DNA from: Aurantiochytrium sp. KH105
Lineage: Eukaryota > Sar > Bigyra > Thraustochytrida > Thraustochytriidae
Direction: 5' to 3'
Length of the DNA: 64,000 nucleotides
NCBI GenBank assembly: GCA_003116975.1
Contig: BGKB01000126.1
Location: 124,001-188,000, forward strand
The notes under the pieces were generated by a model. It did no database searches. It was not told the DNA's origin and saw only the letters and a list, made by a program, of their open reading frames with translations. The number at the start of each line of letters is the position of its first letter. The stretch's first letter is position 1. Of this stretch, positions 35,176 through 58,100 are shown piece by piece. The position numbers and the translations under genes are program-made.

Positions 35176-36418
35176 ATGTCGCTCGGCGTGGACGTCAAGG
35201 CGACAAGCTGGGTAGTCCTGGGCACCGGGCTGGCCGGCCTGGCGACCGTTCGCGCCCAGCATGGCTTCGTGGTGTCGCTGGTGACGACGCTGGCGGAGGA
35301 ATCGCAGCTTGCAATGCTGCTGGTGCGGTAAGTACGGCGCGGAATTCCTGGCGAGAGAATGATGGCGACCTGCCGGTCTACTAACTTACTCGGTTCGGCA
35401 TGTGCACACTTGCGACGACAGCAAGGCCGTGCGACTCCTCTCCTTGCCACTCACAATTCTCTTGTATATGCTGTGGGTGTATGTAACGGCGTCCTCCAAT
35501 CTGGTACCCAACGTGGTGCAGAGCATCGTGCAGGATCTCCTTGCGCTTGCCGCGCTCATCTTCTCGCCCTTTCTCATTTATCGAATTCTACGTTACGCGG
35601 AATTTGCTGCACTTTTTGTTGCAAAGGAACGCGTCAGGGATCCTCTCATTGTCGAGTACTTGCGCAACACCTTGCCGCTTCTTGTGGTGGTCGCTTCGGT
35701 CGTGCTTGCCATTGTGGACTTTCTCGTGTACCTGCGCAGAGCGCGTGAACTCAGCGAGGCCGTTATCAGCCTTTTGTACTCTTTTGTCGGGGTCATTGTC
35801 ATTCTTGGCGCCATTACGCTTTTTCGTGATGCCGTGGGCAGCCTCACATTGCTCGTTGACCAGGAAATCAAAATTGGAGATATTATTCAAATTAGGGGCG
35901 TCACGGGTCGCGTCTTACGCATCGGCGCGGTGGATGTGGCCGTATTACAAGGCGGGTATAGAACAATGCACCTTCCCAGCTCTGACTTTCTCGTTTGGCC
36001 GTTTATCAATCACTCCAAAGCAGATCGACGCGGGGGCGTCGTTCGGCTCCAGCTGCGCGAGTCCGTGGGGCCGCCGCGCTCTGCAGAGGCTTATCGGTGC
36101 CTTGCACGAGACATCAAAACTTTTTTGGAAGCGGATGATGCTGTGCAGCGTTGCTCGGTCAATTTCTTTGCATGTGGTAGCGATGTCTCGCACCCTTCGA
36201 CTCATTTGCCATCGCGGCGGCTGCGCGCCTCCACCTCATGCTTTCTTGTGGTCTGGGAGACCACGCCAGGCCCTCATTTATCGTATTCGCGGAGCCGGTC
36301 TGGCGTTGTCTTGCGCCTTACGGAGTGGCTCGAGTCTTGCAATATCCAGCTTGAGCCCTGGCATGTTTCACAGGTCGCCTATTCGTCTCGTGCAAGAGCT
36401 CTTCAAGTGACGTCTTGA
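35176..36418 (+). CDS. MscS-family mechanosensitive channel-like protein, two exons
   Basis: Exons 35176-35327 and 35422-36418 give 382 residues. The 94-base intron has GTAAGT at its donor, a perfect TACTAAC branch point (35379-35385) and a CAG acceptor; joining restores ...AMLLVRKAVRLLSLPL. Several hydrophobic segments lead to the pore-lining-type helix and the MscS beta domain. The diagnostic phrase is LTLLVDQEIKIGDIIQIRG followed by VTGRVLRIGAVDVAVLQGG, MHLPSSDFL and FINHSKA. MscS channels release osmolytes on hypo-osmotic shock; eukaryotic members also act in organelles. The C-terminal ~120 residues are less typical. Location is not determinable here. Confidence 0.88.
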
Positions 36419-36563: not shown

Positions 36564-39500
36564 CTAGTCTCCATCGTTCTCGCCGTTAACCTCCCAGAGT
36601 ACAAAGAGCTCATGGCCGACAATAAAGGCCAGATACCCCATAATGGCGGTGATAGACATGTAAAAAACGGCATAGAGATCGAGATCCCGCGGACGCACAT
36701 GAAAGGTGTCAAGCCCAAAGACGCGAGTCGACAGCCAACTCTTGAAGATATCGACTGGAATTTCAATCACAAAGAGAATGACGAGCGTGCGGAGGAAAAT
36801 CTCAACCCAGTGCTGCCTTTCCTGGCCAAATACGTGGCCATTGGCAAAGTGCAAGGGCAATTGACTAATAATAGGTCCAAATGCAATGACGAGCATTTCT
36901 GCCACATCCTGTGTGCGAATCATGAGAGCCGTCTCGAGACGAGTTTTTTGCGGGAACATCCGCCACCCGGGAAGACCGACGGCGTTGGCAATGCGAACGC
37001 GCATGTGCGGCGCCCGTGGATGGTGGCGGCGCAGTGCGCTCACGCACAGCATGCCAACCTCGAAGACCGCATTGGCCAAGCAGGCCAATACAAAGGCACC
37101 AAAGCCAGGAACTCGCCCAAGACCAAAGCCTTGTACCAGAGAAAAACCAATTTTCACTGTGCGAATCGCGAAGAGATAGGCTTGAATCTCGTCCGCCTCC
37201 GTGAGCACCGCCACGAGGCCCTTGGTCAAGAGCGCTGTGAGCCACACGCGGGTCGTGGCATCCAGAGCGGCCACGAGGAGGAGTGTTAAATACTGCATGA
37301 AGGCGCTATCGAGCTCCAGGTACTGGTACGTGTAAAAGCACATTATGATGAGCAAGAGCAAAGAGGAAAATTGCAGCGTGGGAATGATGATGAGAAAGCG
37401 CCTGATCGAGGTCACAGTTTCGTCACGCTTCACGAGCGTCGGATAACCGCAGCCTCTGCACTCGATGCGAAAGACAAGCAAGAACGTTGTCACCGCGTGT
37501 GCAGCCACGTAGGCCACCTTTGCCGACAGGTAAGCTCCCAAGAAGATGACCCAGCTTTCGGCGCTGTCAACATCAGAATCCTCTTTGCGCTTGTTCAGTG
37601 TCGCAGGTAGCCACACCACGAGACTTGTGACAAGACCAACCAGTGTTGACCATCCACTAATAAAGGTGTTGGAGCGCCAGATGATCGAGTGCACGGCAAA
37701 GCTTTCGAAGAATGGATAGAGCGTCAACTCGAGAGTCAGGGCCACCCACATGACCGCAGAGGTGGATTCTGCTTCGGGCATCATCAGCGCAAAGTGCACC
37801 ACAATCATCGCCGCGCCAATGAGCAATGCAGCCGGGCGTCGGTCTTGTAACGAGCGCAGCTCGCGACCGAGAAAGTTGCGAACCAGGAAGGACGCTGGCA
37901 AGGCATCTTGCTTGATCTTATCCTTGTAGTCAGCTTCCCAAAAAGCGCGCGGTCGGATACGCGGACGGTGTAGTTTTGCGGTCTGCACGCTTGGGGCCGA
38001 ATGTGACCAGCGACGAAGAGACGATGGCTTTGGTGACCCAGGATTGGAGGCGAATGGTCCGTCTGCTAAATTGGCCCATGTATGGGTACCGCGGGCGCGT
38101 AAAATTTCTTTTTCGCGTCGCTTTTTTGCTCGTCGCCGTCGATCAAGCTCTCTTTCGCGTACGAGCGAGTGATAGCGGTTAGCATTGGCGCGCGTTCGCG
38201 GATGATGGTCGAAAAGCCCAGATTCGAGCGCCAGGTCGCTGTGCAGAGAAACGGGACTCATTTTGCCGAGACTTTCGTCCTCTGAATGACGTAGGCCGTC
38301 ATGTCCGTCAGAATCCGGTGATCTCAAAGTTGGGCTTGCAACGTGGCTGCTCATACCATCCGTGTCGAGATTAAGCGTATGCTGGTTAGGCGACAAAAGT
38401 GATCTTTCGCTCTGCGAGTCTCTGTCGCTGTGTGCGAGATCGTCGTCATGGGTATCGTCAAGGTCCGAGTCGGAATCCGAGCTCTCGTCATCAATTCGCC
38501 ACCAATTGACGAGATGAATCGTGAGCGGAGGACGCCGTCGCGGTTTGCCCGTACGAAGATGAAAGTATAAGGGGATGATGGACACGACCACAAGGAGACC
38601 ACAAAGAAACGATAAAGCGAGCGAGACTTGATCGTGCTTGGCACGCTGCAGTGAAGAGGTCGCCAAGAGCCCCACAGAGACTGCCGAATAGAGGCCCGCC
38701 ATGGGGCCATAAATGACAAGACCGCGTCTCGCGGATATCCATGTCAGTATGACATTCAAAGTGGTGACTACGGCGAGCGAGATGGAGAAACCGCCGCGGT
38801 ACCCGGCTGCGATCGAGTATGACTCTCCAAAGCCCTCCACATCGGCCGCGCACACCATTTCTGGAAGCAAGGGCACCCCGAGGGAAATGGGACCGCATGC
38901 ATCTTGAAAGGATGTGGTCGCCGACGGACACTCGACGGTGAGCGGAGGGTCGAAGCGCGGGTCTGACCATCCACATTGAGCAACCTTGGATTCGACAAAG
39001 ATCCAGGTCACATTTTGCAGACACCATGGCGCGCAGCGAGCCAGAAAGTCAGGTCGTATTTTGCCCATGCAGCCCGAGGCCACGAGACCTATCGAGGAGA
39101 CCGTGCAGGCCGAGGCAGCGACGGTGAGCCCCAACGCGTGCATCATTTCTGTATCGGGCCAGAACCTGATGCCAAGGCTTACTACAGGTATTGCTACCAT
39201 AGCGGCAAAGAGCCAGGTCACGTCGGTTTGTAGCGGTGCTCCGATAGATGGGTCATTGAGTACAAAGGAAGACGTATAGTAGTAGTCGACGCCATAGAGC
39301 GTCGAACTCAGCATGAGCATGGCAATGATACCAGCGTAGTCGCGCTCAAATGAAGGAGAATAAAAAGGATACCGCATGTGCAGCATTTTGTGAACAGTGA
39401 TGAGGTCGCCACTTCGAAAGTGCTCAATCGTGCTTTGACTTCGATGCGCGAGGCGATGAGGTCTTGGACTTGAGCCCTCGGTGGCATGGCGTCGAAATGC

Positions 39501-40097
39501 CCGCGTGGGACTCCATGATCGCATTCGGCGCTTAGCCTCGACGCGATCGCGCTCGAGCCTGCTGGGCACTTTGCCACGAGACGAGCATAGCACGTAGACG
39601 ATTTTGGCCCAGGGTGAGAGGTCCTCGTATTCGAATTCGGACACGACTGTACTCATGGAGTTAGCGTCTTGATGCGAGACAATCCTTCGTCGACTACGAC
39701 GTGGCTCCAAGGAGAGCGCACTGTTGGTTTCATCGTCTTTGAGTAGCTCCTCCTCAATGGCTTGGAAGGCGATTCCCTCGAGGTCGAGTTCGAGCTTGGG
39801 TGAGTTCTTGTCGGTGTCGTCGAGAATGTCTTCGGCGCTCAGCTCGAGATGTGAAAGTCGATTTTCGTCTTCTTCCTCCCGCTCAAGCACCGTCTCCTCG
39901 TCCTCGTCCTCATTCTCCTCGTCCTCCTCGCTGTCTTCTGAACTCCCTGTCGCGTTGAGCAAGCCGCGCCGGACGTGAAGGTGCCCAGCCTCGGTGTCCT
40001 CGTGCTTGTCGTCGCCCGCTTGATCTCCACACACACCCGTTGGCGACGCAGACGTTGCTCCTCGCGCGTGCCCGTCTCGCGCGCCGCCCCCCGGCAT
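36564..40097 (-). CDS. Large membrane protein: degenerate PAP2 domain plus unknown C-terminal membrane domain (paralogue A)
   Basis: 1,177 residues from MPGGGARDG (first ATG, 40097). An acidic Ser/Glu-rich N-terminus leads to a PAP2/lipid phosphate phosphatase-like six-pass domain at about 240-560. The landmark MGKIRPDFLARCAPWC survives near 345. The PSGH motif is replaced (YSIAAGYRGGF near 430), and the R-x5-H-x3-D motif reads QRAKHDQVSLA, keeping only the His. YPLYFH-like and RRPPLTIHL after the last helix still match the intact LPP at 49 kb. After a charged linker, RPRAFWEADYKDKI (about 717) opens a ~450-residue domain with about nine hydrophobic segments, shared with the plus-strand paralogue and unknown to me. 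Catalysis as a phosphatase is unlikely. Confidence 0.85.
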   Translation of the reverse strand: MPGGGARDGHARGATSASPTGVCGDQAGDDKHEDTEAGHLHVRRGLLNATGSSEDSEEDEENEDEDEETVLEREEEDENRLSHLELSAEDILDDTDKNSPKLELDLEGIAFQAIEEELLKDDETNSALSLEPRRSRRRIVSHQDANSMSTVVSEFEYEDLSPWAKIVYVLCSSRGKVPSRLERDRVEAKRRMRSWSPTRAFRRHATEGSSPRPHRLAHRSQSTIEHFRSGDLITVHKMLHMRYPFYSPSFERDYAGIIAMLMLSSTLYGVDYYYTSSFVLNDPSIGAPLQTDVTWLFAAMVAIPVVSLGIRFWPDTEMMHALGLTVAASACTVSSIGLVASGCMGKIRPDFLARCAPWCLQNVTWIFVESKVAQCGWSDPRFDPPLTVECPSATTSFQDACGPISLGVPLLPEMVCAADVEGFGESYSIAAGYRGGFSISLAVVTTLNVILTWISARRGLVIYGPMAGLYSAVSVGLLATSSLQRAKHDQVSLALSFLCGLLVVVSIIPLYFHLRTGKPRRRPPLTIHLVNWWRIDDESSDSDSDLDDTHDDDLAHSDRDSQSERSLLSPNQHTLNLDTDGMSSHVASPTLRSPDSDGHDGLRHSEDESLGKMSPVSLHSDLALESGLFDHHPRTRANANRYHSLVRERELDRRRRAKKRREKEILRARGTHTWANLADGPFASNPGSPKPSSLRRWSHSAPSVQTAKLHRPRIRPRAFWEADYKDKIKQDALPASFLVRNFLGRELRSLQDRRPAALLIGAAMIVVHFALMMPEAESTSAVMWVALTLELTLYPFFESFAVHSIIWRSNTFISGWSTLVGLVTSLVVWLPATLNKRKEDSDVDSAESWVIFLGAYLSAKVAYVAAHAVTTFLLVFRIECRGCGYPTLVKRDETVTSIRRFLIIIPTLQFSSLLLLIIMCFYTYQYLELDSAFMQYLTLLLVAALDATTRVWLTALLTKGLVAVLTEADEIQAYLFAIRTVKIGFSLVQGFGLGRVPGFGAFVLACLANAVFEVGMLCVSALRRHHPRAPHMRVRIANAVGLPGWRMFPQKTRLETALMIRTQDVAEMLVIAFGPIISQLPLHFANGHVFGQERQHWVEIFLRTLVILFVIEIPVDIFKSWLSTRVFGLDTFHVRPRDLDLYAVFYMSITAIMGYLAFIVGHELFVLWEVNGENDGD

Positions 40098-41078
40098 GTG
40101 GACGTTCTCGCGCACGCGATCCCCGCGTCGTCGTGGTCGTCGTGGTCGTCGTCTACAACCTGGCCCCGCGAGAGAGACTCTCCTGAAAGCAGCAGCCAGA
40201 CGCAGGTGTGCTCGACCTGGTCCTGTTCGTTGGCACTGGCACTGCAGGGTCACCCTGGAACGTCTTTCGAGTCCTCGAACCCGGCCACCCTACGCTGCCG
40301 TCGAACGAACCTCGGGCAGGCTGCCACGCGCCGGCAGGCCAGTTCGTCCACATTGAAGGAGTTACGGTCGTCGAGGTGCTTTAAGCGGGTCTTCGTAGCC
40401 GTCGCAGCGACGCAGCGCGAAGGCGTGGTTGTGGACGAAAACATCGGGCGCGACGATCAAGCTCTTTGACGCGATTTTGACAAATATGTGCCTGTCTGAG
40501 GGAAATTTTTATTTCAGGCCTGCCCTATAAGCACTTAGGCCCTAGTGCGCGCGTCCTTCACCTCGTTGAGCCAATCGGCGAGTAAGCAACTTGGGCAGGA
40601 AATGAAATTGCGCGCCGACAGTGCGTGAGCACACAGAACAGCAAGTAAGGCGAGCGCCTGGATGAAGTTTCCCAGCCCAGGAAAGCAAGCGTTCATTGCG
40701 TGGCGGATTTGCACGATTTTTTTTTTAATTAAAAATCACGCGACTCTGGAAGGAAAGAAAGCGCATCGCGGATGTGGTCGCCGAGGTATGGAGCAGCGAG
40801 CTTCGTCAAAAAACGAAGCAGTCGAGTCCCCTTGCCTATCATAAACCTACACTACGGCGCCAAATAGAGCTGCGCATCACTCGCCTCTCGGCTGCCCCCG
40901 CGCGCCCAGAACTCATAGGCTACCGTGTCAAGGAACGAGGAACGACTCTCTCCATACCGCTATCTCTGAACAAGACCCAAAAACCCATACGTTGTTCTCT
41001 TTCAACCTGACCTGTCCCGACGCGACGCTACGTCGAAGTCGCATGTCAGCGGCCCTTCGCCGACGCTGACGAAAGCGT

Positions 41079-41110
41079 AGAGCAGAGCAGAGCAGAGCAG
41101 AGCAAAGCAA
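41079..41110. repeat. (AGAGC)n pentanucleotide microsatellite
   Basis: About six copies, the last with AAAGC variants, ~720 bases upstream of paralogue B. Confidence 0.85.
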
Positions 41111-41698
41111 AGAGGCCTCGGAGAAACATTGTGCGACGGCGGTGAGCATCAGGATTCGGTCACTGTGCCGACATCGTCACTAACAGTAAATGTCAGGAAT
41201 CAGCCGGTGAGGCTGGCAAGTTGTTGCTGGCAAGTGCGGGCGCCATTATCCGCTCGACGCGGCCGGCTGAGGCAGGCAAGCGGGCAGGTCGCGGTGCGCG
41301 CGGCGAGGCGGCGCCGCGGCGCGCACTGCAGAAGAAGGGCTCGGTCAGCCAGCTCTGGCAAGCAGCGAGGAGCGGGAGCGGGCGGTGAGCCTCGAAGGTG
41401 TCGGTGCGACGGGACGCGCGCGGGGCGTCCCGGCGCCCTCCGCGGGGTCCAGCTTGACGCGGGCGCGGCGGAGACGGCGAGACCAAGTCCGAACGGAGGA
41501 GAGGCCGCGCCGAGGCCGCCGCGCGAGGTCGCAGACGGCGAGGCGGAGGAGGGCGCGCGCGAGAGGGGCGCGCCGGAGGGCCGCGTCCGCGTGGCGTGCT
41601 GGCTGGCTGGCTGGCGGGAGAGCGAGGCGCGAGCGTGCAGTGACGGTGACGTCCATTCCGATTTTTCAAATTGTCGATCCCCTCCAGTCCGCGTCGCG

Positions 41699-41752
41699 CT
41701 CGGCTCGGCACGGCTCGGCACGACTCGGCTCGGCTCGGCTCGGCTCGGCTCG
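41699..41752. repeat. (GGCTC)n pentanucleotide microsatellite
   Basis: About ten copies with some GGCAC variants, ~75-125 bases upstream of the start codon of paralogue B. Confidence 0.9.
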
Positions 41753-41825
41753 AGGCGGCGCAGCTTGGCTCTGCGGAAGCCAGAAAGCCCGAGGTGCGCT
41801 CGCGGCTTGAGCGAGGCAAATCACG

Positions 41826-44800
41826 ATGATGCAGCGGACGGGAAGCTCGAGTGAGCACACCCTCTCGGACACGGAGGACGTGGAGCTGGGCCTCGGCGAC
41901 CTCGGCGACAAGCAGAGCGAAGAGCCCTCTCCAAACGAAAATCTCAGATCTCTGGACGTGGGCGATGAGCTCGCCGCAGATGATTGCTTCGAGAGTGGCC
42001 ATGTGCTGCAAGCCGAGTCGGTGCGCTTGAACGACAAGCCTGGGTGGGGCCATCGCGTGCCTAGACCCCGCTCCTCGGAATACGACGGTGGCGACGAGGC
42101 AGAAGCAGACGATGACGATGCTTCTGACTTCTTTTCCGACGCCCAAGGTTCACAACGGAGCAAAAACGGGACTAGGAAGCGCGCCAAGAGCGACTTTGAT
42201 GAGTCAAAACTGAGTTGGCCAGCGTGGTGTTTCTTTGTACTCTTCGGCGACAGACCATCAGACAACCGCACCGGGCGTCACAAGCACTGCAGCATCTCTT
42301 CAAGACGAAAAAGACCAACGAGTCGCTCGAAGGCGAAACAAACGTCAAAACGTCGACTTTCTGCTTCCCCCTCGGACAACGGCTCCGAGGCATCGGGGCA
42401 AGAGACGGATTCCGAGACCTCGCGATCCTCGCGACGGAGATCGCGAGGTCTCTCGCTGCCTGGGCCTCTCGTTCTTATCTCATACCACCGGCAGCTTCGG
42501 CGCCGCCGGCCTCGAGAGCTCTTTCCCTTTTACGCGTCATCGTTCAAGCGCGACTATTTTGGCATCATTGTTGTCTTGTGTCTCAACGCGACGCTCTACG
42601 GCATTGATTACCACGAGGAATCGGCGTTTGTGCTCGATGATCCGAACATAAGTTTTCCACTAAAGCAGGAGCGGTCGTGGATCTGGGGACTCCTCTTTGC
42701 CGCTACAGGCCTGTCATTCATTGCTTGGCGCTGGGGAGAGCTTGAGGTTCTTCATGCATATACGCTCACCGCTTTTGCCAGTCTCTTGACGACAAATGTT
42801 ATTGGAATGACTGCAGCGAGTGCCTGGGCGGCGCTTGGGCCCGATTTTCTGGCGCGCTGTGCGCCATTTTGTATGGAGAATATTACGTGGATGTGGCTCG
42901 ATAACGCCACCATTGTCCAGTGCGGATACCCGGATCCGCGCGGCGACGGTATTACTGTGTACGAATGTCCTAACCAAGGCGCGGATTTAGAGGCCGCATG
43001 CGCTCCCATCTTTCATGGTGTGCCGCAAGCCCCGGAAACGGGGTGCGCTGCCTCTATTGGAACGCTTGGCGAACCATATTCCATCTCACGCGGCTATCGG
43101 AGCATGTACTCGTCCTCTGTTGGGTTTCTTACGTGTGGCTGGCTCACAGTCGCTCTGATTGCGTTGGGGGCTGCGAAACACCGCCCGTCCGCCTACATTA
43201 TTGCCGGCCTCGGCTCTGTTTTCATTGCCGCGTGCGCATCAGTGCAAAACATGACGGGCCAGCACGACGACGTCGTCACTTTTTACTCTGCCGTTTTGGC
43301 CGTTTTGGTCACACTCTCTGTGTACCCGTTGTACTTTCATCCTATCTGGGAAAACTCGACGCCACGCCGCCGCCCGCGCAACCTCATCCACCTTTTCCAG
43401 CGAGGCGAGTTTTCCGACTCGGAGACGGACTCTGACGGCGAGACTTCGCCAGGACTAGACTTTGAGCTGGAGGACAGTCTCTTTAGCTCGGGCAAGAACT
43501 CACTGACCTCGCCCTTTTCGCAAAGCGCCGAGGAGGACGAAGAGGTCGTCGAGGAGGAGACCCTGGCCGCTGCCGCCATTCTTTTGCAGAGCGGGAGCAT
43601 TCGCGCCGACGAAGAATTTACTGACCCGGAAATGCGCACCTTGGGCGAAGATCCGCTTCTGGACGCCAAGGAGACAAACGCCGGGACACCGCGCGTGGTG
43701 ACACGACCCGTGGCGTCGGGCGTTCACTCGGCCTCTGCTTCGAACACGGGCTCGGGCTTGGGATCGGGTGTCGCAGCAACTCCGAGCCCATCCAGTGCCA
43801 TAAAGTCGCCTGCTTTGTCCAGCGAGACGCAGTCAAAGGAACCCGGGCAACGCATCGAGCAGGTTCTCCGCCCTCGACTGGAGAGAGGACGAGGAAAACG
43901 TGATGCCTTTCGGCGCAAGAAGCTCCGCCCTCGTGCGTTCTGGGAGCCGAACTTTCGACAAAAACTCAAGGATGAGCGCATTACCAGCGTCTATGTATTG
44001 CGCAAGTTTGTTTTGCGCGAGACGCATATAATTCTCAAGCTTGTGCCAGGATACATTGTGGTGTGTGCGATTGTGGTGGCCATGTTTTTCATGTTCTTTT
44101 TTACGTTTACGACGAGCACGACGTTTGTGATTTGGGCATGCTTCACGATGGAACTGTATATTTTCCCGTTCTTCGAAACCTTTGCGTCGAGCGCCATCCT
44201 GTGGCACGCGGACGTGCTTCTGGGCGTCTTTCCGCGAGGCGTAGGTGCGGTGGCGATGTCTCTGTTCTGGTTTCCCACGACGCTCTACATACGGGAAGTC
44301 TTTGACAAGCAGGCGTCGAACCAATGGATGATTCTCTTTTTCATGTACGTGATTGCAAAAATTCTGTACACTGGATCGGTCATCGCCGCTATTTATTGGA
44401 TCCAGCAGCGTACGCAGTCGGTCATCGACACTCCGCAATTTGCCGAGCTTCCCCCGGGCCAGCAAGAGGCCTTGCGACAGTACGCACGAGGTCTGGATAT
44501 GCGCGCTATCTTTAAGATTTTCCCCACGGTGATCTTTGCGGTAGTTTCGCTTTACTTTGCGTGGTGTTTTTACACGTATTCATTTCTCAGCATTCGCAAC
44601 CAGCAATTTTTGCAGTATGCGATTACTGGCGTGGTGGTGCCGCTCGTGGACATTGTCTTTCGCGTTTGGCTCACGGGTTTTCTGTCCAAGACGATTTCGC
44701 GTCTGCTCGGCGAGCTGGTGAATGAGGTTGAGTCCTTCAACTTTGCTGTCCGCTTTGTAAAGATTGGTTTTTCTGCGGTTCAGGCCTTTGGCACCGCGGC

Positions 44801-45500
44801 AATCACGAGCAATGGCGCTTTTTTCGCGTCGCTAATCTCGCAATTCGTGATTGAGGTGATTATGATCATTGTCTCGCTCTTCCGTCGCCATCATCCGAAG
44901 CGATATCGCTTACGCAAGCGTCTCGCTGACTTTTTGGGCTTGCCTGGAGACCAGATGTTCCCGGACAAGACGCGTCTGGAGAGCGCCAACTTGTACATTA
45001 ATCAGGACCTGGCCGAGAAGCTCTGTGTTCCGTTCGGTCCTCTCTTTGCGCAGCTCCCGCTCACTCTTCGCAGTATTTCTGACAACTTTCCCACGGCCGA
45101 GCTCAAGTGGTACGACGCTGTGCTGCGCACGCTTGTCATGATATTTCTTTTTGAGCTTCCGGGTGACATTTTGCGCTCATGGATCGCAACGCGACGCTTT
45201 GGAGTCGACACTTTCCATCTCAAGGTTCGCATTGGTCTCTATCAAATTGGTTACATGAGTACAATGGTCGCGAGCGCCTTTCTGTGCATCCTCGGGGCGC
45301 ATTCTTTGTACGTTCTTTGGGAGGGTGATGAAGATGACATTGATGAAGACGACGACGACGACGACGATGATGATGATGATGATGATGATGACGATCGTCG
45401 CCGTCGTCTGAGTCCTCGGCATTTCCTCTTGTCATTTGTCGAGTACTATGTCGACATCGCGGCCGACAAGCTCGCGACTGTGACGGCCGAGCTAGTGTAG
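41826..45500 (+). CDS. Large membrane protein: degenerate PAP2 domain plus unknown C-terminal membrane domain (paralogue B)
   Basis: 1,224 residues from MMQRTGSSSEH. Same plan as the minus-strand paralogue. An acidic Ser-rich N-terminus precedes a PAP2-like domain (about 240-520) with ALGPDFLARCAPFCMENITW near 335. Here even the motif-1 Arg is lost (GP for RP). PSGH is replaced by YSISRGYRSMYSSS (about 420). The third motif reads QNMTGQHDDVVTF, keeping His but losing Arg and the final Asp. RRRPRNLIHLF still matches the LPP tail. The shared C-terminal domain starts RPRAFWEPNFRQKL (about 701) and includes VPLVDIVFRVWLTGFLSK, VKIGFSAVQAFG, RRHHPKRYRLRKRL, FPDKTRLESANL and RRFGVDTFHLK. The end carries a run of about 20 Asp codons (GAT/GAC repeat) and a hydrophobic-amphipathic tail. 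Confidence 0.87.
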   Translation: MMQRTGSSSEHTLSDTEDVELGLGDLGDKQSEEPSPNENLRSLDVGDELAADDCFESGHVLQAESVRLNDKPGWGHRVPRPRSSEYDGGDEAEADDDDASDFFSDAQGSQRSKNGTRKRAKSDFDESKLSWPAWCFFVLFGDRPSDNRTGRHKHCSISSRRKRPTSRSKAKQTSKRRLSASPSDNGSEASGQETDSETSRSSRRRSRGLSLPGPLVLISYHRQLRRRRPRELFPFYASSFKRDYFGIIVVLCLNATLYGIDYHEESAFVLDDPNISFPLKQERSWIWGLLFAATGLSFIAWRWGELEVLHAYTLTAFASLLTTNVIGMTAASAWAALGPDFLARCAPFCMENITWMWLDNATIVQCGYPDPRGDGITVYECPNQGADLEAACAPIFHGVPQAPETGCAASIGTLGEPYSISRGYRSMYSSSVGFLTCGWLTVALIALGAAKHRPSAYIIAGLGSVFIAACASVQNMTGQHDDVVTFYSAVLAVLVTLSVYPLYFHPIWENSTPRRRPRNLIHLFQRGEFSDSETDSDGETSPGLDFELEDSLFSSGKNSLTSPFSQSAEEDEEVVEEETLAAAAILLQSGSIRADEEFTDPEMRTLGEDPLLDAKETNAGTPRVVTRPVASGVHSASASNTGSGLGSGVAATPSPSSAIKSPALSSETQSKEPGQRIEQVLRPRLERGRGKRDAFRRKKLRPRAFWEPNFRQKLKDERITSVYVLRKFVLRETHIILKLVPGYIVVCAIVVAMFFMFFFTFTTSTTFVIWACFTMELYIFPFFETFASSAILWHADVLLGVFPRGVGAVAMSLFWFPTTLYIREVFDKQASNQWMILFFMYVIAKILYTGSVIAAIYWIQQRTQSVIDTPQFAELPPGQQEALRQYARGLDMRAIFKIFPTVIFAVVSLYFAWCFYTYSFLSIRNQQFLQYAITGVVVPLVDIVFRVWLTGFLSKTISRLLGELVNEVESFNFAVRFVKIGFSAVQAFGTAAITSNGAFFASLISQFVIEVIMIIVSLFRRHHPKRYRLRKRLADFLGLPGDQMFPDKTRLESANLYINQDLAEKLCVPFGPLFAQLPLTLRSISDNFPTAELKWYDAVLRTLVMIFLFELPGDILRSWIATRRFGVDTFHLKVRIGLYQIGYMSTMVASAFLCILGAHSLYVLWEGDEDDIDEDDDDDDDDDDDDDDDDRRRRLSPRHFLLSFVEYYVDIAADKLATVTAELV
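45344..45394 (+). repeat. Coding (GAC/GAT)n tract, poly-Asp
   Basis: Trinucleotide repeat in frame near the 3' end of paralogue B, giving an unbroken Asp run; probably length-variable. Confidence 0.9.
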
Positions 45501-46198: not shown

Positions 46199-48085
46199 AT
46201 GGACTTGACGGACCTGAGCGGCCTGTGCGCCCTCGTGCAGCGCAACGTGACGTCGAAGGACCGCACGTACCACTTTCAGAACTTCAAGCAATGCTTTATC
46301 GGCTCGGAGGCCGTGGACTTTATGGTGAACTCCAAAGTGGTCGGAACCCGCGAAGAGGCCGTAGAGCTTGGCCAGCAAATGCTCGAGCAGGGACTCTTTC
46401 AGCATGTGACGCAGGACAGAGACTTTGAGGACAACAAGCTGTTTTACAGATTCAAAGCTCTCGACAGGGACCGTGGACACGCAGAGGAGGGCTCGACATG
46501 GGCCGCCGTCGAGCTGCAAGGTGGTCGGCCTGTCGGCGAGGACGTCGGCCACGGCGACGAGGATGAAGATGTGCCGGTGGAGCCGCTCGACGAGCACAAT
46601 GTGCGGCTCTTGGACCTTTGCAAGCCCGCCAAGTGGGTAAACCCCAAGCCCGAGAAGCGGTACAATATGGTTGTGATTGGCGCGGGCGCCGGAGGTCTCG
46701 TTACCACCGCATCTGTGGCCGGGACTGGAGGCAAGGTGGCCATCATTGAAAAGCACGTCATGGGCGGCGACTGCATCAACGTGGGCTGTGTGCCCAGCAA
46801 GGCCCTTCTCCGCTGCGCTCGCGCGGCCAAGGAGGTGCGCAACGCGAGCGAGTTTGGTATTGAGGTTACAGATTTTACCGTAAACTTTGGCAAAATCATG
46901 GAGCGCATGCGCCGTCTTCGCGCAAGCATTGCGCCCAACGACTCGGCGGATCGTTTCACCAGTCTGGGCGCTGACGTATTCCAGGGCAAGGCTCGCTTCG
47001 TTGGCCCCGATGAAGTCGAAGTGGACGGCCAACGACTCAAGTTCGCTCGAGCGGTGATTGCCACGGGCGGACGCGCGCGCGTCCCGCCCATTCCGGGCAT
47101 TGAGTCCGTGCGATACCTGACCAATGCCTCGCTGTTCAACCTCACGGAGCTTCCCGAGGTCTTTGGTGTGATTGGCGGCGGGCCGATTGGCTCAGAAATG
47201 GCGCAGGCGTTTGCGCGTTTTGGCAGCAAGGTGTTTTTGTTCGACCGTTCGCCCAAGATTCTGCCACGCGAGGACGCCGAGGCGGCCGAGATCGTGCAAG
47301 CGTCAATGCTTGCCGACGGCGTGAACTTCAAGTTTAATGCAGAGGTACGGCACGTGGAACCTGCTGGCGAGGACGGCAATCGCATCGCCTTGACGGTCTC
47401 CTGCGACGGCGGTCCGGAGGAGGTGATTGAATTGGACGAGCTTCTCATCTCAGCTGGCCGGGTTCCAAACGTGGAGGGCCTGGGTCTCGAGGAAGCTGGC
47501 GTGGAATACAATCAGCGGGGCATCGAGGTGAACGACCGCCTGCAGACGTCGAACAAGAGCATTTTCGCTGTGGGTGACGTGTGCCTGCCGTATCAGTTTA
47601 CACACGCGTCAGACTTTTCGGCGCGCATGGTTGTGCGCAATGCGCTATTTTTCGGCAACAACAAGTTCTCTGACCTGCTCATTCCGTGGGTCACGTACAC
47701 CGAGCCGGAGGTTGCGCATGTAGGCAAGTACGAGCACCAGCTGGACGAGGAGGGCGTCGCATACGACGTCTATCGCGTGGACATGGCCGAGAACGACCGC
47801 GCCATTCTCGAGGGCGACACGGAGGGTTTCGTCAAGGTTGTTTGTGCCAAGGGCAAGGATACCGTGTTGGGCGCGACAATTGTCTCGGACACGGCTGGCG
47901 ACATGATTGGCGAGATCTCGGTCGCCATGCAGAACGGCATTGGTCTCTCCGGCGTCGGCGCCACGATTCACTCGTATCCGACGCGCGCCGACGCTATCCG
48001 TCGCACGGGCGACCTGTACAACAAGACGCGGCTCACGCCACGCAACAAGGCTCTCCTGCGGACCCTGCTCTCGCTCCGCAGGTAG
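46199..48085 (+). CDS. DEP-domain / FAD-dependent disulfide oxidoreductase fusion
   Basis: 628 residues from MDLTDLSGLC. Residues ~1-88 form a DEP domain (RNVTSKDRTYHFQNFKQC, FIGSEAVDFMV, LGQQMLEQGLFQHV, NKLFYRF), a module that docks signalling proteins to membranes or receptors. An acidic linker (~95-145) leads to a class I pyridine nucleotide-disulfide oxidoreductase. It has FAD motif VVIGAGAGG (158-166), redox-active CINVGCVPSK (Cys192 and Cys197), NAD(P) motif GVIGGGPIGSE, SAGRVPN, FAVGDV and C-terminal IHSYPTRADA. The last replaces the HPT-x-E of glutathione reductase and lipoamide dehydrogenase, and is closer to MerA-like proteins (IHPYPT). It has neither the N-terminal HMA nor the C-terminal Cys pair of mercuric reductase. 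The electron acceptor is unknown. Confidence 0.92.
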   Translation: MDLTDLSGLCALVQRNVTSKDRTYHFQNFKQCFIGSEAVDFMVNSKVVGTREEAVELGQQMLEQGLFQHVTQDRDFEDNKLFYRFKALDRDRGHAEEGSTWAAVELQGGRPVGEDVGHGDEDEDVPVEPLDEHNVRLLDLCKPAKWVNPKPEKRYNMVVIGAGAGGLVTTASVAGTGGKVAIIEKHVMGGDCINVGCVPSKALLRCARAAKEVRNASEFGIEVTDFTVNFGKIMERMRRLRASIAPNDSADRFTSLGADVFQGKARFVGPDEVEVDGQRLKFARAVIATGGRARVPPIPGIESVRYLTNASLFNLTELPEVFGVIGGGPIGSEMAQAFARFGSKVFLFDRSPKILPREDAEAAEIVQASMLADGVNFKFNAEVRHVEPAGEDGNRIALTVSCDGGPEEVIELDELLISAGRVPNVEGLGLEEAGVEYNQRGIEVNDRLQTSNKSIFAVGDVCLPYQFTHASDFSARMVVRNALFFGNNKFSDLLIPWVTYTEPEVAHVGKYEHQLDEEGVAYDVYRVDMAENDRAILEGDTEGFVKVVCAKGKDTVLGATIVSDTAGDMIGEISVAMQNGIGLSGVGATIHSYPTRADAIRRTGDLYNKTRLTPRNKALLRTLLSLRR

Positions 48086-49026: not shown

Positions 49027-50634
49027 ATGGCGCAGCGCGGCGAGATGGACGGCGACCTCGCGGGCGGCAAGCGCGACGTGGAGCAGGGCGACCCCGGCGA
49101 GGAGGCGCAGCAGGAGGGACAGAGGCGCGTCTCGGAGGCGACGGCGACCTCGGAGGGAGACAACGAGGAGCGCACGGCGGCGGAGAATAGGGAGGCGCAA
49201 GAGGCGCTTCACACGGCCGCGGCGCAGGCCGCAGCCGCGGCGGCAGACCAGGAGGCCCGCGCAGAAGACGAGCAGCTGGAGCAGGCCAAGGCGGAGCGCG
49301 AAGTGGCCGAGGCGCAGTTGAACGAGGACGACGCGACGACGCGGACGGCGTCCAAGACCTTGTCCCAAGAGAGCGCGGTCCTGGAACCGGCGACGGCGCG
49401 GGTCGAGGGTCTTCCGGGCACGGCCATCGCCTACAAGCTCTGCGGCTGCCTGCCCATCCCGCAATGGTGGTCGAACACCTATATCGTCGACTGGGCGGGC
49501 GTGGTGCTCTGCGCGATTGTCCTTTTGATCGCCAACGGCCCAATCGACTGGCTCAAGCACTTTCCCATTGATATGTCCGAGGTGCACATCCAGCAGCCTC
49601 TGCACAGCGACCGCGTGCACATGATCACCGTGGGCATCCTCGTCGTGGTCCCGTGCGTCGTGGTGGCCATCTTTTTCTGGTTCAAGCGAAGAGATATGTT
49701 TGAGGACTTGCACGCCTTTGCGCTTGCCACGGTCGCCCCCGTCGTCTTTGCCTATGTCGTGTGGGTCATCATTGGCAATGCGGCTGGCAAGCTGCGTCCT
49801 GACTTTTTGGCGCGCTGCGCGCCCGCGTGCATGGAGAATTTCACGTGGACATGCGCCCCCGATCCGTCCTTGTACGCCGCGGACGCCTGTGACCTCAGCG
49901 AGCAAAAGTGCTGTCCGGTCCAGTGCGGGCGCCAGGATCCGCGGTATCCGGACATTCTCGATTGCTCGTTTACGCAGAACGGCATTGATCTGAGCACGAG
50001 CACGTTGCAGAGCGTCTGCAACAAGTTTTGGGACAGGTCCGTTAGTTTGGAGCAAGCCGAATGCAACGGGTACCCCGGAGAGGCGGGTTACAGCGAGTTT
50101 TCCATTCGCGAGGGCTTCCGTAGTCTGCCCTCAGGCCACACCCAGGTCATGTTTAATGTTGCTACCACGTGGTGGCTGTACCTTGCAGGCAAGCTGCAGG
50201 TGTATGGGCGAGGTGTTCAGCAGCGCACGTTTTGCTACGGATACCTTGCCATTTCTTTCATGTTTGTTCTCAGCACCTATGTTGGTGTGACGCGGCTCAA
50301 CGACATGAAGCACGACATGTTTGACATCATTCTGGGAGCCTTTATTGGGTTCATTACGAGCTTTATTGCCTACCCGCTGTACTTTCAGAACCCGACGCTC
50401 GGCGGGGAGCCCTTGCGGCGTCCCAACCACTTTACCATCAAGGATGTGCTTTGCTGCCGCAAGCAGGATCCCTGGCCCGCTGCCAACACGCATCTGGCGG
50501 CATCAGACTACCCGTCCAGCGCCTTTGCGCAGCCGCAGCAGGCGGTGGAGGGACAAGAGTCGGCTACGCTTCTCGCCGATGTCCCCTCGAGTAGCAGCAC
50601 GCAGTACAAGCACGCGAATATGTCCATCGTGTAG
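49027..50634 (+). CDS. Lipid phosphate phosphatase (PAP2 superfamily), likely active
   Basis: 535 residues from MAQRGEMDGD. The N-terminal ~130 residues are a Glu/Ala-rich charged, probably helical region. Six membrane segments follow. Catalytic blocks: GKLRPDFLARC (~253-263; Arg-Pro kept, but the leading Lys of the K-x6-RP form is Gly), RSLPSGHTQ (~364-372, with the catalytic His) and TRLNDMKHDMFD (~421-432, R-x5-H-x3-D complete). These are the three motifs that make up a PAP2 phosphatase site. Family members dephosphorylate phosphatidic acid and related lipid phosphates on the outer or lumenal face. Between motifs 1 and 2 is a Cys-rich loop (CAPACMENFTWTC, CCPVQC) whose first part is shared with the two degenerate paralogues nearby. 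Confidence 0.92.
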   Translation: MAQRGEMDGDLAGGKRDVEQGDPGEEAQQEGQRRVSEATATSEGDNEERTAAENREAQEALHTAAAQAAAAAADQEARAEDEQLEQAKAEREVAEAQLNEDDATTRTASKTLSQESAVLEPATARVEGLPGTAIAYKLCGCLPIPQWWSNTYIVDWAGVVLCAIVLLIANGPIDWLKHFPIDMSEVHIQQPLHSDRVHMITVGILVVVPCVVVAIFFWFKRRDMFEDLHAFALATVAPVVFAYVVWVIIGNAAGKLRPDFLARCAPACMENFTWTCAPDPSLYAADACDLSEQKCCPVQCGRQDPRYPDILDCSFTQNGIDLSTSTLQSVCNKFWDRSVSLEQAECNGYPGEAGYSEFSIREGFRSLPSGHTQVMFNVATTWWLYLAGKLQVYGRGVQQRTFCYGYLAISFMFVLSTYVGVTRLNDMKHDMFDIILGAFIGFITSFIAYPLYFQNPTLGGEPLRRPNHFTIKDVLCCRKQDPWPAANTHLAASDYPSSAFAQPQQAVEGQESATLLADVPSSSSTQYKHANMSIV

Positions 50635-51997
50635 GAAATGCATTTCGTTTGATGCGCGTGTATGTGTAGTACGTGTTTTTTTTTCTTCCCCATCATGGCC
50701 ATGGACCCCTTTCCCCGCCTTTCAATATAATTTATCATTCTGTGAAATGCCTTGGGTTTCCTTGCTTGTTCGCGACCGCCATAGCGACGTCGGTCCTCTG
50801 CGGCCACGGCTGGCTGGGCCATCTATAAACTTTGTAGTAATAGTAAGCAATGACAGACAGACAGACAGACAGACTGATTGACAGACAGGCAGACGCAGGC
50901 CTGCAGCGGTTCCCATTTCCTCCCCCCCTCCAAGTTCCCAACCAGTCAGCTGCAGTTGCATAGCTAGGCTAGCTAGGTCCCCGGTCCCCGTGCTGGACAA
51001 ACGACGCGTGCTGGCCGGCGGGTCTACGACTGTCCACTCCGCTTCACTTTTTCACATGATGAGGCGGGGACCCCTGCACTCGACATTGCACAGCGGCCAC
51101 TGTCGTCTCGTCAAGAAATGACCTTCGTTCGGGTCCGCAGAAGCGAGCGAGCGAGGGCTCCAACCCTCGGGGCGATGGAGTGGCGATGGGTCACATCACA
51201 TCGCATCGCATCGCATCGCATCGCATCGCATCACAGCGCCTGCATGCATCCATGCATGCTTGCATGCATGCATGGATGCCTCCATCGCACACATCCGTCA
51301 AGGTAGAGACAGTCCATCGCGAGCCCGCCTCGTCTCGCGCGGCTGCGCTTGCTTGGGCACGGAGTCCATGTGCACGCGCGAAGTGAAAGTGGACGCGGCG
51401 GAAGTGGAGCAAGGCGCGCGGCAAGTGCGGTATAGCCATTCGGTTAGTTAGTTAGTTGCCCGCGCGATGGACTCGCAGTCAGAAGAAGCAGAACCGACTC
51501 TCCGGGCGGCGGGCGCGAGGCCAACTACAAGAGCAGCGGCGCGCGCAGCTTGGCTCGAGGGGAAAAGAGGCGCGCAGAGGCCGCGGGCGCGAGGCCGGCG
51601 CCTTTGAAAGCAAAAGGAAAAAGCGCCGCGCCGCGAGCGCAGCAGACGCGCCCGCGGCTGGCGCGCGCAGACAGACCCGCAGGCTCTCGTGCGCGCGCGG
51701 GCACGCAGGCACGCAGGCACGCGCGCAGGTAGGCTCGCGCGCAGACTCGCGCGCGCTCGCAGGCAGCGGCGCGCGGCGCCTGCGGCGGCAGCAGCGCGGA
51801 GGAGGCAGGAGCGTGTCCATCATTATCGCGCTGGCGCGTGCCCTGCCGCCGTGCGCGCCTTGCGTGCCTGGGGAGACAGCGCGCGCGGGCGGCGCGGCCT
51901 GCCTGCCTGCCCTTGGTCTGGGCGCGTCCGGCCGCAGCCGGCCTGGCCCGAGCCCGGGCGGGGCCGCGCGAGGAGGTAGCGCGAGGAGGTGCGGAGC
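50635..51997. other. Intergenic and 5' leader of adenylyl cyclase, repeat-rich
   Basis: A T-rich LPP 3' flank, a CAGA array (about 50852-50872), a CATCG pentamer array, CATGCATGC palindromic sequence (51240-51280) and then a ~550-base extremely GC-rich leader. No gene supported. Confidence 0.5.
51192..51233. repeat. (CATCG)n pentanucleotide microsatellite
   Basis: About eight copies in the adenylyl cyclase upstream region. Confidence 0.9.
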
Positions 51998-52118
51998 ATG
52001 GGCGTGAAGCGGCAGCGCTCGGGCAAGGGCCGCGAGCAGCTGGCGCCGCCAAGGGCGCCTGAACTGCCGCCGCCACCACCGCCGCCGCCGACGACGCCGC
52101 CGCCGCCGACGACAGCAA

Positions 52119-52150
<32 letters not shown>

Positions 52151-55100
52151 ACGAGGCTGCCGCACGTAGGCAATGGACGAGCGCCAACGTGCATCGATGT
52201 TAGCAAATCCGCGGTCGTGCGACGTTTCGTCCCGCGCGTCGTGGTCGAGAGGTTTCAGCAGGAGTCGTACCTGGAGAGCAATGAGGCGAACCTGGAGGAG
52301 ATCCCGGGCGTTGTCGCGTTCTTTGACATTTCGGGCTTTTCGAGCCTCGCAAACGAACTCAAAATCGAGGAGCAGCGCGAAACGCAAAATCAGGCCTTTT
52401 CCGCGGGCATTCCCCGCTTACCCACGCAGTTCACCGTCGGGTCATCGGCCTCCAACCTTGGCCCCCTCGCGCCTTCGTCGGAGCGTCTGGCCGAGATCCT
52501 CAATCATACTTTGAGCGGACTCGTGAACTACATTCTCATGAGTGGTGGTGACATCATCAAGTTCGCTGGCGACGCACTGATTGCCATTTGGCGGAGCTCA
52601 CTGCAAGAAGTGGGCAGCATGGCCGCGGTGGCGTGCCATACGGCCCTCAAGTGCACGGCGCTCACCTCGGAATCCAACGCTGGCCTACAGCTGCACACGG
52701 GCATTGGCTGCGGCCAGCTCATCCTCGGCCACGTCGGAGGCCAGCTAGACCGCTGGGAGTTTTTTATTGCCGGCGACGCCAACACGCAAGCCGCACTGGC
52801 CCAAGAGGCTTCGAAGCGCGACCAGGTGGTGGTCTCATCCACTGTTATGAAAAAGCTGGGCACCCTCATGGAGCTCAAACCAACGCCCATCGAAATCGAA
52901 CTCTTTCCTCAACTCGGACACCCAGGTTATTATCAAATCCGCATGGTCAAGCTGCTGCACGGCAACTACAAGTTCCCGGACAAAATCAATCTTGCAGCAG
53001 AATCGATGCTTCCGATGGAGACGCGCATTCTTGGTCTCGCCACGGCGTACATTCCACGACCGGTGACGAAGATGATTGAGAACCGGTCCGCGAACGTGGA
53101 CGAGATTCGCAAGGTGTCGGTGATCTTTTTCCATCTCTTGGAGCCGCTCAACTCGCCCTCCCCTCGCGAGGGGCTTTTGCGCAAGTACTCGTCCGCCTCG
53201 CTCACTGACACGCTCGAGCATGAGTCGATGCCCTCCTCTCCGCAACACGTTGGCATTTCTGCCACCTTGCCGTCGCAAGACAATGCAGGTGAAAGCCCGC
53301 GTAACGAGGAGCCACCGCCATTGAGTGCCGCTGGACTGCTGCAGCCTCCGCCGCTCGCGCTGGGCGGAACGAGACGTCTCGGTGGCAAGCGCGTCGATCT
53401 CTCCGTGGATACCTCGTCTATCAATGGCGACGACAACATGGACATTGGAGCAGCGTCAGGGCACACTGCTGGTGATGGCGCGCATAGCGAGCGACAGCAA
53501 GCTCTGGACATGTTTCTCGACTCGATCCACGAGCGTGTGAAGGCCGTGCAGCGCGCCGCTTACAGCCAATGGGGCACACTGCGTCAATTTATTATCGACG
53601 ACAAGGGCTGCGTGGCAATTGTTGTAATGGGACTTCCTCCGCACTACTTTGAGGACAACGCGGCGCGCGCCGTGAAGATCGCTGCCAATCTCATTCATTC
53701 GCAAGGCGTCCAGGCTTCTGCCGGAATCTGCACCGGTACAGTCTTTTGCGGTGCCATTGGGTCCGAGTATCGCGCCGAGTATTCCGTGACGGGCGAGTGC
53801 ATCAATCTCGCTGCGCGTCTCATGGGCAAAGCAGAACCCAATTCGGCGCTTTGCGATGCCCAGACCTACAAGGAGGCCAAGTCGAACCATAATTTCACCT
53901 TTTCCAAGGTAAGCCACACCCTCAAGGGTTACAATGAAAGCGTTACGGCGTACGCGCCAGGGCTGGCTGCCATTGCGGAAAAGAAGACGCTCAAGCAGGG
54001 CCACCTTGGCGGCGGCATGCGCGCTTCGCCGAACCAGGGAAGCATGTCCGGGCAGGATTGGGTAACGATTGGCCAGGAACAAGCAAAGGCCGACCTTTGT
54101 CGAGCCGCCTTTCTCGACCGAATTCGACCCTCCAAGGCTGTTCTCCTCGAAGGTCCGCCAGGCGCAGGCAAGTCGCATCTCCTGAGTTGGGTCAGCAACG
54201 TGGCGGATCGCAAAACGGTGGACATTTTCTACAATGTGGCCGAAGTCTCCGAGCGCAAGACACCCTTTTCCGTGTGGAAGGCCATTGTGCAGGAGATGCT
54301 CAAATTTAAGCCCAAGGAGATTGATCCAGCGTCCCAGGATGCGGCGGACCGCGACTCGAACTTGAAAAAGGTACTCACGGCCAATCGACACTCAACGTTG
54401 AGTTCAGTCATGACCATTATGTCTCCGAGCGAGGCTGCTTCCGCAGCGGAGAATCTGGGCGAGCACCACCCGATGCCGCTCGAGAGTCCCATGATCACAC
54501 CCTCTGGGTCTGGGCCAGGGCCTAGTGCATTGCCTCTTTCTTCGCCCTACATTAGTTCTGTGAGTCGGACCTCGTCAGTATCGTCCATTCGGCGCACTGG
54601 CATGCGTGGGCTCTTTGGCTCGAGCGCGGCGGCGGCTGCGGCTTCTCCCGAGGACGGCCCGGACTACGAATGGGATATCTCCAATCTGCAGACGCTAACT
54701 GGTGGTGGTACCGGCGGTGCCGGCGGTGGGTCGTCTTCGGCTGCAGGGACGCCCGTATCAGGGCCGATGCTTGTCCGGCGTGGCGGGAGCAATTTTATGG
54801 CCATTCGCAGCTCGGCGTCAGCAGACGTGGCGCATTCGCACGTGGAGCGCCGCCGCCTTTCGTCCAAATCGCGGTCCACGCCCAGACCTTTGACGTCGAC
54901 GCGTAGTTTTTCCTTTAACGGGACCGATGAGGATCGCGCGGCCTTGGCTCACGCCATTGCGTCTCCCAACCATCGGCCTCTGTCGCTCAACTCTCCCACA
55001 GGAGGATATGCCAACGCCGCAGCAACTGGGAACGCCCCAGGGACACCCAGCGCTGGACCTCTGGCCAAAATTTCGCACACTGTGGGTCAGGTTGGTCAAG

Positions 55101-58100
55101 TTCTGCAGCGCAGTCTCTCGATGGACGTGACGGCGCGTAGAATTCGCAAAAAGAGTCCTATTCCCTCGCATACGACAACTCTCTCTGCAGATGCCGGCAT
55201 ACCTGGTGCGTCTGGTTTTCCAGAGCCCCTTGCGCTGGGCCAGAGCTCCAACCTGGGCGCGGCTCCGGCCCTTTCAATGGCCTCTGCACGACTCTCCTCC
55301 TTGTCAAGTCCCGCCATTAGCCTGGACGCCGGGCAAGAGTCTGTTGGTCTCGACGAGCGCTTTCAGACGCGCGTCCTTAATTCTTACTCTGAAAATCCAC
55401 AGGAGGAGGAGGAGGAAGACGAGGATGGCAACGAGGAGGGGCAAGACAAAGATCAGAACGACGAGGCCAAGGAAACGCCTCGCATGCGTGCAGATATGAG
55501 TGACGCAGGCGATGACGATTATTCTGGCGATCACATGTCAGAAGGCGGGCACAGCATGGTGTTTGTGCAACGTTCACACGAAGGCAGTAGACGCAAAGGC
55601 AGCGCCGCAGAACATAGTCTGGCGGAAGGAAGTGGGGGAGAGGACAGTCATTTCGGAAGTCCCGGGTCGACGCGATCCTCCATCAACGAGCCAGGCCCTG
55701 TGAACCAGGCGGCACCCTCGCCCTGGAACACTTTGTACGATGACTTTCCCATGAGCGCCTCGTGCAACAACATGGAGGAGTTTATGTATTCCGGTGACAA
55801 CGAAATTGACCATCCGGAGCCCATTTATCGAACAACGAGCATGGGCCGACCCGCAAGCATGCCGCGCTCTTTGGGGCGAAACGCTTTGCCTTTGCAGTCG
55901 CCGCGGGTGCGAACGGGATCCGGCCATTACTCGGGTATACACGCGTCGGGGGCGGCGCCGTCTGCGTCGACCACGGGGAGTCGCTTTTTGCAAATGAGCG
56001 CACAGAGCGGCGACCACAAGCTTTTGGAGGGGTCTCCCATGCTGGCTCGTCTACGAGACAATGGCCATCTTCGCGGGCGCCGACTTTCGTCCCTCGGCCA
56101 CCTTTTGCCTGGCTTTGTATTTGCTTCCGCAGATGGCGGGGCGCCCTCGTCGGGGATGACAGCGGCGCCGACTTCAGGCGCAGCACCGCATCCCATGGCT
56201 CGGACGCCATCAACGGACCGGTCAAGCGCAGGGACGGCGGGCGACGAGGACGGCGGAGCGAGCACACATACCGCAAGCGTCTCGGGTCAGACGACGACGA
56301 GCCATCGCAAACGTGTCTTGAGCGATTCCAGCGAGAGCGGACTTTTCAATTCTTTGCTGCACTCTGCGCGCCCGGGCATGTTTCGCCGGTCGTCGCCAAC
56401 GCCAACACCTACGCCCCCCGCGTCGCATCCTCTGTCGCCGACTGGGCGGCTTACCCACCGCTTCTCGGACGCGGACCTGGAGGCACGAAGCTTGCGTTCT
56501 CCGAACGAGAATGTCGTGGAGGCTTCGCGCGGCCTGCATGGGCGGCGCGGGTCTGGGACCCTGCGCGCTGCCGACCGCGAGGACATTATCGAGATTGTCT
56601 TGGCCCTTCTCGACGAGATTGGAAAGCGCGGTCCTGTCGTGATTATCATCGACGACGCGCAACATTTGGACGATGCGAGCTGGGAGCTCTTGAAACGCGC
56701 CGTCTTGCACGGGATGGACGTGACGGCACAATTGCAGGAAGAAGTCATTGGAGCCAATGTCAAGTCCAATACCACGCGACGCGCGATGCCCGGGCCTTCA
56801 GTGCGCTTTATCGTGGCCTACCGAACAATGCAAGAAACCGAGCAACTGAATCCTCATTGGCTCGAGCTGCTGGAGCTGTGCCAATGCGAGAGCCAACGAG
56901 TGGCGCGTGCTCAGGGCCGCAGAGAGCATGCTGCAGACGAGAGCGCGGACAACTTGATGGACGAGGAAGGTAACGATCTCGAAGAAGACTCGCTGGGGTC
57001 CGCGGCGCCAATGAACAATTCGCTTGCCCCGGCCAAGCTGGGCGCAACGCAAGAGAACAGCGGGATTATGACGGCTGGCAACGGTATGGCGGAATCTTCC
57101 GCGGCACATTCGCGCGAGGAACACGAAGGTCTGGTGCGAAACGAGGCGGGAACTGCGCACTCGCAAGAGCTCTCAACAATGCACCAGGCTGGTAAGCCGG
57201 GGAGCACCGGGGAGCAAAGCTCTGACGACAGCGTGAGTCTGGACAATGAGCATGACGAGAACGGCACAAAAGAAGGCAAGAGTTTACGACCGGCCTGGTG
57301 CCTCGTGTCGTACACGGAGCCTTTGAGTCAGCGAGATGCGGCCAACTTTTTGACCTCAAATCGTGCAGTAGGCGTGGGCTCAGATCTGCTCGAGTTTTTG
57401 CACGATTCGACAAAGGGCAATCCGGGGTACATGTTGAACCTCTTTAGCAGTCTTGTGGAGCGTGGTTTTATTCGTATCAACTCGCTTACGGGCATGGCAC
57501 AGGTCATGGACGGTTTGCGAAACATGGCACCGGAGAACCTCTTGCTGATGAGTCTTCCAGCGCACTTTGTTGCTGAGGTTTACGGACGGTGGGACAATCT
57601 TTCGACGAATGTCCTCCTTATTCTCAAAATGGCCAGCGTCATCGGAAAAGTTGTGCTCGTGGAACTCTTGTTCGATGTGTATACGAAGAAGAATCAGCTC
57701 ATGCACGTTGCGTCGACGGAGCCATCTTCGACGGCCGCAATGGTGCAGCAAGAGCAACAGCAGCAAATGCAACTGGGCGGAGGAGGCCAACATGGATTGC
57801 TGAGCCCCGTGGGCGGAGTCCAGGGCGGCCTTCGTCGCGAGGATAGTATTGCTGAGCTACCGCCGCAAGCCTCGGACGCAAGCGCTGAATTTGCGGCCGC
57901 GGCAGGAACTGCAGTGCAGGAGACACGTCCGCGTGTAGCGCGCAGTATGACGGATCGGCCCTCTATCGGCGAGAGGGCAAGCAGCTCGCGGAGGGCAAGT
58001 GTGATCACGCCTTATGGACGGGACAGCATCACGCTGGTGCAGGATACGTCGGAACAACTGATTCTTTTGGCGGGGCGCAGCCAGAGTGACAATGGATTGC

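Follow-up and report, generated by a model that had tools for sequence, protein, structure and literature searches.

Lipid phosphate phosphatase-derived pseudoenzymes joined to an orphan multi-pass membrane domain in Aurantiochytrium sp. KH105

We analyzed a stretch of 64,000 nucleotides from the thraustochytrid Aurantiochytrium sp. KH105 (assembly GCA_003116975.1, contig BGKB01000126.1, positions 124,001 to 188,000), referred to below as the window, and focused on two head-to-head genes, A and B, each running as a single open frame over about 1225 codons. Judged by their sequences, A and B are maintained pseudoenzymes that descend from the lipid phosphate phosphatase (LPP) branch of the PAP2 superfamily. 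The catalytic His of motif 2 and the Arg and Asp of motif 3 are gone from both, and each protein continues, after its pseudo-LPP half, into a multi-pass membrane domain. This domain is called orphan here relative to Pfam, NCBIfam, the PDB, prokaryotic and viral contigs and the genome itself, eukaryotic databases lying outside this definition. The features concerned are as follows, in window coordinates.

36564..40253, minus strand: protein A, single open reading frame, 1229 amino acids
36564..40097, minus strand: likely coding sequence of protein A, from Met53 (codon 40097..40095), 1177 amino acids
38499..39401, minus strand: pseudo-LPP half of A, residues 285-585, 26% identical to the window LPP over 325 columns
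38793..39053, minus strand: cysteine-rich loop of A, residues 401-487, with six cysteines invariant in A, B and two LPPs
38778..38789, minus strand: site of the lost PSGH in A, F489-S-I-S492, from the alignment with LPPs
37962..38498, minus strand: hydrophilic linker of A, residues 586-764, without hydrophobic segment, dN/dS between alleles 0.347
36579..37961, minus strand: C-terminal orphan multi-pass domain of A, residues 765-1225, 37% identical to that of B, with nine hydrophobic stretches
41826..45500, plus strand: protein B, single open reading frame, 1224 amino acids
42489..43409, plus strand: pseudo-LPP half of B, residues 222-528, 25% identical to the window LPP over 327 columns
43107..43118, plus strand: site of the lost PSGH in B, Y428-S-S-S431, from the alignment with LPPs
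43920..45332, plus strand: C-terminal orphan multi-pass domain of B, residues 699-1169, recognized by its likeness to that of A, dN/dS 0.054
49027..50634, plus strand: neighbouring LPP (the window LPP), 535 amino acids, with PSGH and R-x5-H-x3-D present and K-x6-RP absent

In the assembly (76 Mb in 367 contigs), most search matches came as pairs located on separate contigs, as would be expected of a haplotype-resolved diploid. A, B and the LPP recur in unchanged order on the contig of the second haplotype, C111. Translation of A probably starts at Met53, because in the C111 allele this ATG is preceded, 30 codons upstream, by an in-frame stop.

The original prediction, made from the DNA letters, had described two LPP-derived paralogues of about 1,200 residues at this place, and both the paralogy and the descent are borne out. 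A and B are 33% identical across 974 columns (E 2e-162), their PAP2 halves taken alone being 40% identical. In pairwise comparison with the window LPP, the pseudo-LPP halves of A and B gave E values of 6e-19 and 2e-18, and the window LPP itself matches Pfam PAP2 (PF01569, E 2.1e-13) as well as human PLPP1 (PDB 9l0i, E 0.0017). Common to A, B and this LPP are the order of the hydrophobic helices, the motif-1 region, the loop between helices 3 and 4 and a closing PLYF..P.RRP segment. In a tree of six PAP2 sequences, all from this genome, A and B form one clade with a support of 99.9/100, which became 100/100 after removal of the catalytic columns; the placement of this clade among the LPPs, and thus its parent LPP, is supported at just 56-60. 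A weak AlphaFold2 model of the pseudo-LPP half of B, of low confidence, displays six long helices that follow one another as in LPPs; when solved structures were compared with it, human LPP1 ranked first and the best-ranked were PAP2 enzymes.

Neither A nor B matches PF01569 directly. The full-length proteins hit no Pfam family at E<=1, and no PAP2 row appeared when their halves were searched singly at E<=10. PDB sequence searches with A, B and an alignment of the pseudo-LPP halves gave no meaningful match. The same alignment produced 12 pattern matches and zero relatives in viral contigs; each of our contig scans relies on two short peptide patterns drawn from two or three sequences and may miss distant relatives.

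The residues of the LPP motifs are required for catalysis. We compared them in an alignment of A, B, the window LPP, a second LPP of this genome (L017/L018) and a third one, L001. In place of motif 2, PSGH, stand FSIS (F489-S492) in A and YSSS (Y428-S431) in B. The loss of this motif had been predicted, with AAGYRG and SRGYRS as its replacements; that assignment was mistaken, both strings aligning with REGFRS just before PSGH. The R-x5-H-x3-D of motif 3 keeps only its His, as had been claimed, and reads Ser534/His540/Ser544 in A and Gln474/His480/Val484 in B. Motif 1, K-x6-RP, has become Ser-x6-RP in A, Ala-x6-GP in B and Gly-x6-RP in the window LPP. The position of its Lys is thus occupied by Ser393 in A, by Ala331 in B and by Gly in the window LPP, with Lys present in L017/L018 and L001, and its Arg is kept as R400 in A and replaced by Gly (G338) in B, the loss in B having been noted beforehand. 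The window LPP had been called intact, which is true of PSGH and R-x5-H-x3-D but not of the Lys position of motif 1; this LPP possibly has an altered activity and would then represent a half-way state beside its dead paralogues. It had also been considered that the catalytic residues could be supplied from another position, but a scan of both whole proteins found neither PSGH nor R-x5-H-x3-D anywhere else; one K-x6-RP string occurs in A, at 760, within the linker. No catalytic-motif site of A or B differs between haplotypes.

The loop that follows motif 1 is the best-conserved part of the LPP half. Across A, B and two LPPs, 21 of its 85 ungapped columns are invariant versus 17 of 191 elsewhere (Fisher p 0.001). 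The loops of A and B hold six cysteines each, and the six of A are all invariant in this comparison. By analogy with LPPs, this loop would be luminal or extracellular. The second LPP (L017, L018; G000 C196, C15) has the same cysteine-rich loop along with all three canonical motifs.

Retention of the two proteins despite lost catalysis was evaluated from dN/dS between the allele pairs (Nei-Gojobori). Measured against neutral site ratios, constraint is evident in each of the four membrane halves of A and B (p 1.3e-5 or less). The pseudo-LPP half of B, with 27 synonymous changes and a single nonsynonymous one (dN/dS 0.011), shows as much constraint as the two measured LPPs (PAP2 regions, 0.103 for the window LPP and 0.025, a strong constraint, for the second LPP) despite its absent catalytic residues. 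The C-terminal domains gave 0.048 in A and 0.054 in B, and the N-termini and linkers of both proteins 0.14 to 0.41. The pseudo-LPP half of A shows the highest value of the four LPP halves measured (0.213). This half is under looser constraint than the C-terminal domain of A (21:14 versus 43:7 synonymous to nonsynonymous changes, p 0.0099), the counterpart in B (p 0.00075) or the second LPP (p 0.008); from the window LPP it could not be told apart (p 0.40). Altogether, the invariance of the loop, the selection on the membrane halves and the lost motifs indicate that the cap and the helices have been kept and the catalytic sites have not. More generally, dS between the window and C111 haplotypes is about 0.05-0.14 in these genes, and the pair could be used to test constraint on other genes of this assembly.

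Decay of A and B into pseudogenes is hardly credible: although catalytic residues are lost and the dN/dS of the A half tops the four LPP halves, both frames are open in both haplotypes, the alleles differ in length solely in Asp runs outside the membrane halves, at A 115 and B 1174, by two and three additional Asp codons, and purifying selection is strong on three of the four membrane halves and significant on the fourth.

The C-terminal domain, of about 465 residues, opens at RPRAFWE (residue 767 in A and 701 in B), and the predicted presence of a shared membrane domain from this point on is confirmed by the 37% identity between the two copies. Several of its nine hydrophobic stretches have room for two helices. 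Two questions had been attached to the original prediction, namely whether this domain ever occurs without a PAP2 part and whether it belongs to a known transporter family. As for the first, a search of the genome with the domain of B at E<=10 gave four matches from four candidates, which are B, A and their alleles; in this genome the domain is thus found solely with a PAP2 half. As for the second, no meaningful match came from Pfam (one sub-threshold row for B, E 0.023, and none for A), from NCBIfam or from PDB sequences. Scans for relatives with two alignments (A2 and A4) gave 162 and 462 pattern matches in viral contigs and 87 and 33 in prokaryotic contigs, and no tblastn relative in either. 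We also considered that the domain could be a second PAP2 copy, an idea left unsupported by an hhalign comparison with the PAP2 half (probability 0.3%). Conserved charged residues are not enriched in its membrane stretches (p 0.41). Its structural model, built from two sequences, is too weak to be read (pLDDT 41.2, pTM 0.29), and the structural matches of this model are an unrelated mix.

What could be the function of such proteins? We tentatively favour the idea, drawn by analogy with the animal PLPPR proteins (also called PRGs), that A and B are pseudophosphatases controlling an attached membrane module. The dead LPP half would still bind lipid phosphate, or would dock on active LPPs, without hydrolysis. 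This binding would control or position the C-terminal domain, which could be the effector and would most likely move a lipid or an ion. The working mode would then be that of PLPPRs, with a membrane module replacing their unstructured cytosolic tail.

The main rival, somewhat unlikely in our view, is that the C-terminal domain is a working transporter or channel and that the pseudo-LPP half, without any ligand, is an inherited anchor or a part for targeting or assembly. The far stronger constraint on the C-terminal domain of A than on its PAP2 half argues for such a division of labour. Against it, the pseudo-LPP half of B differs by one amino acid between haplotypes, both paralogues have kept all six cysteines of the loop, and the PAP2 halves of A and B are about as similar to each other as the C-terminal domains are. 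Taken together, this is more than a mere anchor should need.

One could also assume that A and B work as subunits or chaperone-like partners of the active LPPs next to them, whose activity they would tune through mixed oligomers. The LPP and B are 3.5 kb apart, and all three genes are linked on both haplotypes; moreover, human PLPP1 is present in the PDB as eight chains of one sequence in two entries, which would fit a multimer. We nevertheless hold this explanation to be unlikely, since the closeness of the genes may just reflect tandem duplication and the C-terminal domain is left unexplained.

Quite unlikely, and going further than the control of an attached module that we favour, would be that the C-terminal domain represents a new family of protist membrane transporters, channels or scramblases, gated by the fused dead phosphatase as a lipid sensor. 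On this basis, a role in the ectoplasmic net may be imagined, in parallel with the filopodia driven by PLPPRs in animals.

It is very unlikely that the motif-3 His has been combined with new residues in a transferase or hydrolase acting on another lipid headgroup. This His (His540/His480) is indeed unchanged throughout A, B and the three LPPs of the comparison, and the half of B is strongly constrained. However, both proteins lack the His of motif 2 as well as the Arg and Asp of motif 3, B also lacks the motif-1 Arg, and A and B have different residues at five of the six catalytic-motif positions lost in both, the shared one being Ser for the motif-2 His. These differences weigh against a new active site, which should be common to both proteins.

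Several other genes were noted in the window. Between B and the LPP (46199-48085, plus strand) lies a gene in which an N-terminal DEP domain is fused to a pyridine nucleotide-disulphide oxidoreductase, to our knowledge an unusual pairing. The end of a gene for a protein with an MscS-type mechanosensitive channel beta-domain (35402-36418, plus strand) adjoins the 3' end of A. Further away are an alpha-kinase domain protein (22808-24979, plus strand, E 5e-37) and an open reading frame of 2363 residues (51989-59080, plus strand) with two Guanylate_cyc stretches and AAA_16, resembling soluble adenylyl cyclase. Window scans detected no RNA families or tRNAs. In the assembly we observed, in keeping together with the gene content with a thraustochytrid, segments like the polyunsaturated-fatty-acid synthase PfaA, the best of them scoring 930 bits over profile positions 6-1035 of 2582; none passed the whole-model cut-off of 1010 bits, and some match is found in 11 of 14 control genomes, none over the cut-off.

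No study of a pseudo-PAP2 fusion or of a thraustochytrid LPP was found among the matches listed in the open-access literature, outside which most subscription journals lie, and nothing relevant on a thraustochytrid genome was listed there. The ectoplasmic net is special to labyrinthulomycetes and has been likened to filopodia (PMC12221091, in excerpt); 'phosphatase' and 'PAP2' are absent from the main text, as excerpted, of that paper on ectoplasmic-net candidates of Aurantiochytrium.

With the LPPs themselves (PLPP1-3, PF01569), A and B have in common the helix order, the motif-1 region, the helix 3-4 loop and the PLYF..P.RRP segment; they differ by the absent motif-2 His and motif-3 Arg and Asp, by the additional C-terminal domain and by the lack of a Pfam PAP2 match. 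The FIT/FITM proteins are another membrane family reported to be related to lipid phosphatase and phosphotransferase enzymes (excerpts of PMC5798408), and their likeness to A and B is taken from this description.

The closest parallel can be drawn with the PLPPRs. According to the excerpts of PMC9520309, these proteins have six helices, descend from LPPs and carry substitutions of catalytic residues; they are regarded as devoid of LPA (lysophosphatidic acid) phosphatase activity, although an early report had claimed the opposite, and lipid-tail binding is possibly retained in them; PLPPR3 and PLPPR4 carry a long C-terminal extension of about 400 residues, unstructured and intracellular. In the excerpts of PMC9657456, PRG3 and PRG5 have C-terminal tails that can be exchanged for one another and are important for membrane placement and outgrowth. 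A and B are likewise LPP-derived, with substituted catalytic residues and a long C-terminal extension, but theirs consists of a hydrophilic linker and then a polytopic membrane domain. The protist case seems to have arisen independently of the animal one, because PLPPRs are reported to emerge late, their homologues being first detected in nematodes (PMC9520309, same excerpts), a judgement drawn from this reported emergence.

Dead LPP relatives are thus already known in animals, where they shape neurons without lipid hydrolysis. On present evidence, A and B belong to this known kind of LPP-derived pseudophosphatase, as a variant with an orphan polytopic domain attached in both genes, and do not form a new category. 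If the protist case is indeed independent, the LPP fold would have been repeatedly reused for non-catalytic work, to which the attached domain would give a physical, assayable output.

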